Below, in pieces: positions 18,484 to 54,160 of a stretch of 64,000 bases of DNA. The notes under the pieces are model-generated. The model did no database searches, was not told the origin of the DNA, and saw only the letters and a list, made by a program, of their open reading frames with translations. Numbering within the stretch: the first letter of the stretch is position 1; every line of letters starts with the position of its first letter. The translations under genes and the position numbers were made by a program. Source of the stretch: Pseudomonas brassicacearum (GTDB lineage: Bacteria; Pseudomonadota; Gammaproteobacteria; Pseudomonadales; Pseudomonadaceae); the NCBI RefSeq assembly GCF_009601685.2, contig NZ_CP045701.2, forward strand, positions 3,906,001-3,970,000. The letters are read 5' to 3'.

Positions 18484-18701
18484 AGTGCTCGCTCCCGCCA
18501 GGAACTGCGCAGAAGCTGCGCAGAAGCTGTGTAGGAACTGCGCAGAAGCTGTGTAGGAGCTGTGTAGGAGCTGTGTAGGAGCTGTCGAGTGCAACGAGGC
18601 TGCGATCTTTCCCCAGACACTTGAATCTCAAGCGAAAGATCAAGATCAAGATCAAGATCAAGATCAAGATCAAAAGATCGCAGGCTTCGCCAGCTCCTAC
18701 A
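18484..18701. repeat. 11-bp tandem array plus REPIN with six GATCAA hexamers
   Basis: 18484-18585 is a degenerate tandem array with 11-bp period; the unit is GTAGGAGCTGT, and the last three copies are exact. It runs into a REPIN at 18574-18701 whose loop holds six AGATCA hexamers. A degenerate GTGGCGAGAG-type REP lies just before it at about 18472-18500. The right end of the REPIN supplies the stop codon of the DUF1652 gene. Confidence 0.85.
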
Positions 18702-52742: not shown

Positions 52743-52826
52743 CGCATAGAAACTGCGTAGGCGCTGCGTAGAAACTGCGTAGGCGCTGTGTAGGAGCTGT
52801 GTAGGAGCTGTGTAGGAGCTGTGTAG
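52743..52826. repeat. 11-bp tandem array interrupted by the IS110 element
   Basis: About seven units of 11 bp: degenerate GTAGGCGCTGC and GTAGAAACTGC types, then three exact GTAGGAGCTGT copies. The array stops at GTGTAG (52826), where the IS110 begins, and the REPIN that should follow resumes at 54053. Confidence 0.85.
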
Positions 52827-52841
52827 ATACCGTCTTGCCCC

Positions 52842-53813
52842 TCATCGAGCAAGGGCAAATTTTGGATCAAATGGCTGACCCGATTTGAGAACGGCGTAAA
52901 CGAAATGTAGTAGCTTGCGCATCGCTGCGCAGATGATCTGCTTGGGGGCCTTGCCGTTGGCCTTCAAGCGATTCTTCATGGCGATAATGGGTTCGTTGTG
53001 CTTCAACGCTACCAGGCCAGGCATGTACAGACCCGCACGAACGCGCGCCGAGCCAATCCTCGAAATTACTGTTCTGCCTTTGAGCTTTCCTGAGTCCTGT
53101 AGCTTTGGGTTCAACCCAGCAGCAGCGACCAGTTTGCGAGGGTCATCATATTTACGCAGGTCGCCCAGTTCGGCCAGCAGCCGCTCAAGGGTTTTCTGCC
53201 CGATCCCGTCGATGGTCACGATCAAATCGCGCATTTGGCGCATGTCCGGATCATCGTCGATGTGTTTTTTGATCACTTTGTGAGTTTCAGCAATCTCTTT
53301 TTCGATGTGGCGCAGCACGGAGTTGATCGAGTCTTTGACTTTTTCGTCAGACACATCCAGGCGGTTGAGCTCCATTTGCTCCATTTCCTGAAGATCATCC
53401 AGCCGACGGACCATTGCCTTTAGTTGGCGGTATTTCTTCGGCTCCGGTGCCCACTGCTGAAGCTTTTCCGCCTTTTCCCGAGCAAAGTCAGCAATCAGTT
53501 TGGCATCGCTTTTATCGGTTTTGATCCGACGTAACTCGCTGTCGGCGTAAGCGTGGGTTGTTGCCGGATTTACTACGCAGACCCGGTAACCCTTGTTGTA
53601 GACGAACTCGGCAAGTTCAAGATGATAAACGCTGGTAGCTTCCATCACGATCCGGGCTGCAGGCTCGGCATGCTTGTTCAGCCAAGCTTCAAACTCCTTG
53701 AAGCCTTTCGAGTTGTTAGCCAGTTTGGCTTTGGTTTTGTGCTTGCCGTTTGGCAGATGAGTGGCGATATCAAAAGTGTTTTTAGCGACGTCGACACCGA
53801 CGAAATTGGACAT
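52842..53813 (-). CDS. IS110-family transposase (DEDD recombinase)
   Basis: 323-aa recombinase. The N-terminal RuvC-like domain has the DEDD residues D8 (FVGVDVAKNTFD), E58 (IVMEATSVYH), D100 and D103 (IKTDKSDAKLI). A coiled-coil linker spans about 130-190. The C-terminal Tnp domain has GIGQKTLERLLAELGDL and AAGLNPKLQDSGKLKGRTVI; S241 in DSGKLKG is at the place of the catalytic serine of IS621. All key residues are present, so the enzyme looks functional. It works with a bridge RNA from the adjacent left end. Codon use is less GC-biased than the neighbours. Confidence 0.95.
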   Translation of the reverse strand: MSNFVGVDVAKNTFDIATHLPNGKHKTKAKLANNSKGFKEFEAWLNKHAEPAARIVMEATSVYHLELAEFVYNKGYRVCVVNPATTHAYADSELRRIKTDKSDAKLIADFAREKAEKLQQWAPEPKKYRQLKAMVRRLDDLQEMEQMELNRLDVSDEKVKDSINSVLRHIEKEIAETHKVIKKHIDDDPDMRQMRDLIVTIDGIGQKTLERLLAELGDLRKYDDPRKLVAAAGLNPKLQDSGKLKGRTVISRIGSARVRAGLYMPGLVALKHNEPIIAMKNRLKANGKAPKQIICAAMRKLLHFVYAVLKSGQPFDPKFALAR

Positions 53814-53859
53814 GACCGTCTCTCCGTTGATCCGTTTCCGATCATCACTGCACTCTGTC

Positions 53860-54040
53860 CAACCTTGCGAATGCGGGCTCTCGCCAGGGACGGGCCCAAG
53901 ATACCGTTCGAACTATACGAGTGAGTGTGGAGGGCTGGAGCACTATCTACATCACAGGCAAAAAGCCTAAGGAGCTGTACGGCTTCCAAGTCCCTCCCTC
54001 GATGATCAGTCGAGAACTATCGCTTCTGTCGGAGCGATAG
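53860..54040 (-). ncRNA. Predicted IS110 bridge RNA
   Basis: The left end on the transposase strand reads as a bridge RNA of the IS621 type. 5' hairpin: CTATCGCT/AGCGATAG (54040-54017). Target loop: ACAGCTCCT at 53978-53970 is identical to the left target plus core beside the element; hairpin AGGC-TTTTT-GCCT (53968-53956); then TGTAG at 53951-53947, complementary to CTACA of the right target. Donor loop: ACGGTATCT at 53907-53899 is identical to the element's right end plus core (52833-52825); later CAAG at 53867-53864 pairs with CTTG at the left end. The order left guide, hairpin, right guide in both loops is as known. RNA ends are approximate. Confidence 0.75.
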
Positions 54041-54052
54041 TCGAGATACAAG

Positions 54053-54160
54053 GAGCTGTCGAGTGCAACGAGGCTGCGATCTTTCCAAAGACACTTGAAT
54101 CTCAAGCGAAAGATCAAAAGATCAAAAGATCAAAAGATCGCAGGCTTCGCCAGCTCCTAC
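54053..54160. repeat. REPIN half cut off by the IS110, with 8-bp loop repeats
   Basis: GAGCTGTCGAGTGCAACG onwards is the continuation of the REP at 52821. The loop holds AGATCAAA repeated three times (8-bp period instead of 6). The right arm ends cagctcctac at 54160. A GCGGGAGCAAGCTCCCTCGC hairpin follows directly (54161-54186). Confidence 0.85.

Follow-up and report, generated by a model that had tools for sequence, protein, structure and literature searches.

How does an insertion sequence in Pseudomonas brassicacearum find the repeat in which it resides? The window, the whole stretch of 64,000 nucleotides that was analyzed (G000:C1:3906001-3970000, from a genome that is a single contig of 6.58 Mb), holds an element (Table 1) whose left end very probably encodes an IS621-type bridge RNA. 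Judging from the sequence comparisons below, the loops of this RNA would pair with the target and with the joined element ends, and the transposase would exchange strands at CT.

By its sequence, the element is an IS621-like member of the IS110 family, IS110 group. It combines a DEDD RuvC-like domain and a Tnp domain with a catalytic serine, a CT dinucleotide core is common to target and donor at both junctions, and a long non-coding left end (237 nt upstream of tnp) accompanies a short right end (15 nt, 52827-52841, past the tnp stop codon). The 323-aa product scores above cut-off for both PF01548 and PF02371, passes the NCBIfam model NF033542 'IS110 family RNA-guided transposase' with 219 bits against a cut-off of 140, and matches the solved structures of IS621 (8wt6, 2.7e-65) and ISCro4 (9t56, 8e-65). 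It is 43% identical to IS621 across the aligned part, with D8, E58, D100, D103 and S241 aligning to D11, E60, D102, D105 and S241 of IS621; each of these residues is present in 70 or 71 of the 72 copies compared below. The only other copy in this genome among the best five candidates scored is identical over 1224 bp (0 differences), and, as the original prediction had it for other copies of the element, its insertion site is again ACAGCTC-CT-ACA.

Table 1. Features of the element and its surroundings, in window coordinates
Feature	Position	Strand	Basis or remark
IS110-group element between two CT cores	52827..54050	-	1224 bp; ends set where identity between copies stops
Left CT core	54051..54052	-	sequence reading
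Right CT core	52825..52826	-	sequence reading
Left target ACAGCTC within REP repeat	54053..54059	-	sequence reading
Right target ACA	52822..52824	-	sequence reading
Left donor ACGGTAT, right end of element	52827..52833	-	sequence reading
Right donor TGTATC, left end of element	54045..54050	-	sequence reading
Transposase, bridge-RNA-guided recombinase type, 323 aa	52842..53813	-	domains, structure matches, residue alignment
-35-like TTGCTC, 17 nt before TATCTT formed across core on end joining	52847..52852	-	promoter scan
Predicted bridge RNA, ~192 nt	53851..54042	-	both ends inferred
5' stem-loop 1	54015..54042	-	helix 1; 6/10 pairs changed on both sides
Extra 5' hairpin CTCGA-CTGATCA-TCGAG	53998..54014 (loop 54003-54009)	-	helix 2
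Target-binding stem and loop	53929..53997	-	helices 3-5
Left target guide ACAGCTC + CT	53970..53978	-	co-variation with flanks
Right target guide TGTAG	53947..53951	-	position; co-variation test
Donor-binding stem and loop	53857..53913	-	helices 6-7
Left donor guide ACGGTAT + CT	53899..53907	-	match to right end; co-variation
Right donor guide CAAG	53864..53867	-	table of 72 copies

The prediction of a guide RNA started from two 9-nt identities on the minus strand: ACAGCTCCT at 53978-53970 equals the target flank at 54059-54051, exact to the base, and ACGGTATCT at 53907-53899 equals the right end of the element plus core at 52833-52825, with coordinates that are likewise exact. Could these be chance matches in biased, repeat-rich sequence? 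When the 237-nt left end is shuffled with its dinucleotides preserved, either 9-mer alone does turn up about 0.1% of the time (ACAGCTCCT in 115 and ACGGTATCT in 83 of 100,000), but both together occurred in 0 of 100,000, as the prediction had anticipated, and the pattern recurs in 68 of 72 relatives. Coincidence is thus a vanishingly small prospect. The shorter segments proposed to complete the guides, TGTAG and CAAG, do lie at the expected place of the 3' guide halves, although they are not significant by themselves. The order of left guide, hairpin and right guide, occurring twice, is indeed that described for the IS621 bridge RNA (PMC11208160, PMC11208158).

If the left end carries a guide, then the guide should change with the insertion site. 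Relatives were detected at an E-value of 0.001 in 140 of 398 genomes of the genus, with the best five candidates scored per genome; a transposase search gave 18 loci, all in Pseudomonas records. The comparison set, drawn from these relatives and the named loci of that search and not exhaustive, comprises 72 copies whose two ends could both be read; they come from 27 Pseudomonas genomes and have transposases 39-100% identical to that of the window; two copies with broken transposase frames (L068 and L069) were retained. The motif CTTGTAT served to locate left ends, and [GA]TATCT right ends, so that those letters are fixed by rule, whereas the seven left-target letters are free of the end-locating rules. 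A coverage rule removed truncated copies among L021-L026, L038, L050, L051, L054, L079, L120 and L127-L129, as well as L055 and L056; repeat entries for the same copy and L053 (30% identity) were also dropped before the 72-copy table. Two pairs of copies lie about 1.3-1.6 kb apart in direct orientation (L105/L106 in G041, L149/L155 in G586), and a third pair at such a distance is divergent (L117/L119 in G078).

The left-target guide agrees with its own flank at 7/7 bases in 68 of the 72 copies, the remaining four (L097, L121, L123, L125) having one or two mismatches, and the match includes both core bases in 62. It ends sharply, with base -8 agreeing in just 13 of 72. Fourteen distinct target guide 7-mers are represented, and in 13 of these 14 guide classes the own guide ranks first for its flank; the exception, G012, has mixed insertion sites. 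Permuting guides among the 27 genomes gave a mean agreement of 4.09/7 and a maximum of 5.46, and 0 of 20,000 permutations reached the observed 6.93; the genomes are related, and the cases therefore do not amount to independent events. The co-variation of guides with flanks that had been predicted is therefore present across the 14 guide classes.

Might the transposase instead read the REP sequence as DNA, the 9-nt identities being remnants of captured targets or protein-bound subterminal repeats? Direct repeats are common near element ends, and IS families without known guide RNAs are described as targeting REP (PMC1525189). Yet the identities change with the flank across the 14 guide classes and occupy fixed places within the loops of a co-varying RNA fold (see below). 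Moreover, the guide of the window element has A where relatives at 80-94% identity have G, with the exception of L067, and the flanks differ likewise (L067 has ACAGCTG in guide and flank alike); guide and flank change by one base together while the transposases are 93-94% identical. Genome G100 adds a further argument against DNA reading: its A-type repeats are commoner (199 versus 42 G-type), yet the guide and both insertions are G-type. Taken together, we regard recognition of REP by the protein itself as very improbable.

What, then, is the resident target? The genome has 522 ACAGCTCCTAC sites versus 25 for a reversed control, and 433 ACAGCTCCTACA sites versus 11. The element thus appears, as had been proposed from its sequence, programmed for a resident REP family. 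Its own genome favors the A type, ACAGCTCCTAC (522), over the G type, GCAGCTCCTAC (251), whereas the G type dominates in G011 (323 versus 21), G216 (305 versus 19) and G129 (790 versus 88), where guides have G. That the guide merely follows the commonest repeat fails in G100, given the counts above. Read in reverse complement, the G-type site corresponds to the beginning of the described REP class PF20, GTAGGAGCTGCCGAAGGCTGCGAT (PMC3686654). In six uninterrupted repeats inspected in the own genome, ACAGCTC-CT-AC runs through the insertion point, letters that the search pattern itself required. The target also occurs in tandem arrays with an 11-bp unit (GTAGGAGCTGT / ACAGCTCCTAC) at 52779-52822, at 18553-18585 and genome-wide. 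A three-unit 29-mer was found in 16 of 398 genomes of the genus, most often in the own genome (69 times). The idea that the element makes these arrays is unsupported, because G011 and G216 hold the element but no three-unit 29-mer.

The other guides can be judged in the same set of copies. In all 72 copies the left donor guide reproduces seven bases of the element's right end, a figure that is not fully independent because the donor letters [GA]TATCT are partly fixed by the right-end rule; three donor variants (ACGGTAT, ACGATAT and ACAGTAT) each come with a matching donor guide. The right-target guide co-varies weakly with the right target: across the 27 genomes it beats permuted guides only at +3 (32 of 3000 as good) and +4 (0 of 3000), positions +1 and +2 being nearly constant and +5 and +6 showing nothing. 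The constancy of CT across the 72 copies is not independent evidence, since the extraction rule required CT. Departures at the core bases of target or donor guides are seen in the groups L091-L096, L097, L098-L102, L104-L108 and L113-L119. Despite CT cores, 18 of the 72 donor guides have C rather than T at their last core base, and the target guides of G110 and G265 (L091-L096) carry A or G there in place of T. The second core base may not need to be paired.

Does the left end have the architecture of a bridge RNA? The predicted layout is a 5' stem-loop, then a target loop, then a donor loop, plus one extra 5' hairpin; the RNA start was placed from the promoter-like site at the junction and the foot of the first stem-loop, and its end from the donor-loop stem. 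Folded singly, the left end has no unusual stability (z -0.87, not used as evidence), and the structural evidence therefore comes from an alignment of 22 sequences (the window and 21 relatives) out of 36 distinct left ends. The consensus contains 38 pairs in seven helices, with 97.4% of cells paired, a level that leans towards the fold because it was predicted on the same alignment, and with 19 pairs changed on both sides; RNAalifold gave 41 pairs, from which three joining guide letters to each other were left out. Shuffles were as good in 0 of 500 on four of five measures and in 2 of 500 on the fifth, and sliding the partners along reduced pairing to 34-48%. Hence the conserved fold that the original prediction called for exists, with compensatory changes. 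Rfam contained no matching family for the left end (the sole hit, mir-351, reached 22.3 bits versus a cut-off of 70). An RNA model trained on these rows, with IS621 kept out, recovers the left-end RNA of IS621 (L130) at an E-value of 3e-10; for the G012 element, at 39% identity, the E-value is 1e-13.

The guide rule also extends to sequences outside the set from which it was derived. Searching 390 genomes of the order with the RNA model alone gave a match in 14; added sources were protein-found loci in the class (8 of 274 genomes), four plasmid loci of 15 listed, and IS621 and G012 as references. Own-genome loci, G113, G188 and L149 were left out because the set already included them, they were partial, or L155 repeats them. 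Twenty-eight of the 29 sources gave 29 hits, several of which share a genome, and L179 gave none. Each hit was anchored at the CTTG closest to the start of the model, with a limit of 12 bases; this succeeded for 19 and not for ten. Compared with their own guides, the anchored flanks agreed at 7/7 in eight cases, at 6 in eight, at 5 in one and at 1-2 in two. Without both references, each at 6, this leaves 14 of 17 at 6 or 7 of 7 and two of 17 that fail; guides of other hits reach at least 6 in 6.1% of pairs. In L170 the rules chose the wrong place; inspection by eye gives the flank TTGCGCC and the hairpin CCCAA-CTGATCA-TTGGG, which stay outside the counts.

The extra hairpin follows the first stem-loop, ahead of the target loop, and is present in 67 of 72 copies; it was not found in the five G012 copies, nor in IS621. 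Its stem changes pairwise (CTCGA/TCGAG in 41 copies, CCCGA/TCGGG in 26), and its consensus, C[UC]CGA-CUGAUCA-UCG[AG]G, contains the self-complementary hexamer UGAUCA in a loop that is the least variable of four compared (21-22 of 22 identical per base). Among the 29 outside hits it appears in L169 of Xanthomonas sacchari, in L173 and L174 and, by eye, in L170; L133 has a CTGATCA loop on an imperfect stem. What might such a hairpin do? The IS621 complex is described as drawing on two bridge RNA molecules, one for the target loop and another for the donor loop (PMC11208158). Because the loop is self-complementary and nearly invariant and the IS621 complex uses two RNAs, we considered, as a speculation with rather poor prospects, that the hairpin might be a dimerization element whose loop-loop kiss would join two bridge RNAs ahead of their assembly by the transposase. 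The loop TTGATCC of the five G041 copies, in which only GATC is self-complementary, counts against this idea. Co-folding the hairpin with itself (-19.2 versus -3.4 kcal/mol for a single copy) did not discriminate, as the same stem with each of five shuffled loops reached -10 to -24. If functional, the hairpin would add a further RNA component to bridge recombinases.

How would the RNA be made and used? In the joined ends, TTGnnn, 17 nt and TATCTT form the best promoter-like pair of the scanned stretch in 20 of 21 elements, at one place, with the -10 spanning the core; L077 and L112, which have longer right ends, still carry TTGC at that place. In single elements 5 to 83 of 200 shuffles were as good, so the scan is no more than suggestive of a promoter at the joined ends, from which transcription would begin close to the base of the first stem-loop. 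By homology, we envision a scenario whereby the element leaves as a circle, its joined ends create a promoter, and the resulting bridge RNA binds the transposase. The first loop would then pair with the target repeat ACAGCTC-CT-ACA and the second with ACGGTAT-CT-TGTATC, the junction of the element's two ends, so that the transposase could swap strands at the shared CT. Alternatively, the left-end RNA might mainly regulate transposase expression, as proposed for ISPpu9, whose two RNAs, each about 180 nt long and one of them antisense to the leader of tnp, were interpreted as regulators (PMC8450116). Regulation would not require the RNA to carry copies of flank and right end, yet both copies are present and co-vary, making this an exceedingly improbable main function; the RNA may still have a side role in regulation.

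The bridge RNA reading places the element in a known kind of system, RNA-guided DNA recombination, of which it is a new example and not a new system, because guide-target co-variation across IS110 (5,511 RNA-target pairs; PMC11208160) and natural retargeting (between ISEc11 and ISXne4; PMC11187229) are already in print. Within the largely open-access IS110, REP and IS621 literature covered, none of the titles dealt with the bridge RNA of an element from Pseudomonas. The relatives form a naturally occurring series of IS621-like bridge RNAs, in which 14 target guides agree almost perfectly with their landing sites. Such a series is a ready orthologue set for RNA-guided recombinases, and it records a natural specificity of seven left-target bases plus CT with a sharp edge.

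How does the element compare with its known relatives? With IS621 of E. coli it shares the layout of its predicted RNA, upstream of the gene with target loop then donor loop, left guides of seven bases plus CT, the CT core, a left end beginning TGTAT, the same D-E-D-D-S residues and insertion in REP sequences (for IS621 described in PMC1525189). It differs from IS621 in its target and donor letters, in the extra hairpin and in the promoter-like -10, which in IS621 lies 7 nt further into the left end rather than across the core. ISPpu9 and ISPpu10 of Pseudomonas putida KT2440 resemble it by description, being IS110-family elements inserted in REP with a 2-bp direct repeat (PMC1525189), and the small RNAs of ISPpu9 are described as antisense upstream and sense downstream of tnp (PMC8450116). 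Like the seekRNA of IS1111-group elements such as ISPa11 and ISEc11, its predicted RNA matches both target strands; unlike the seekRNA, which as described lies downstream of tnp with matches in reverse order (PMC11187229), it is positioned upstream, with the left guide first.
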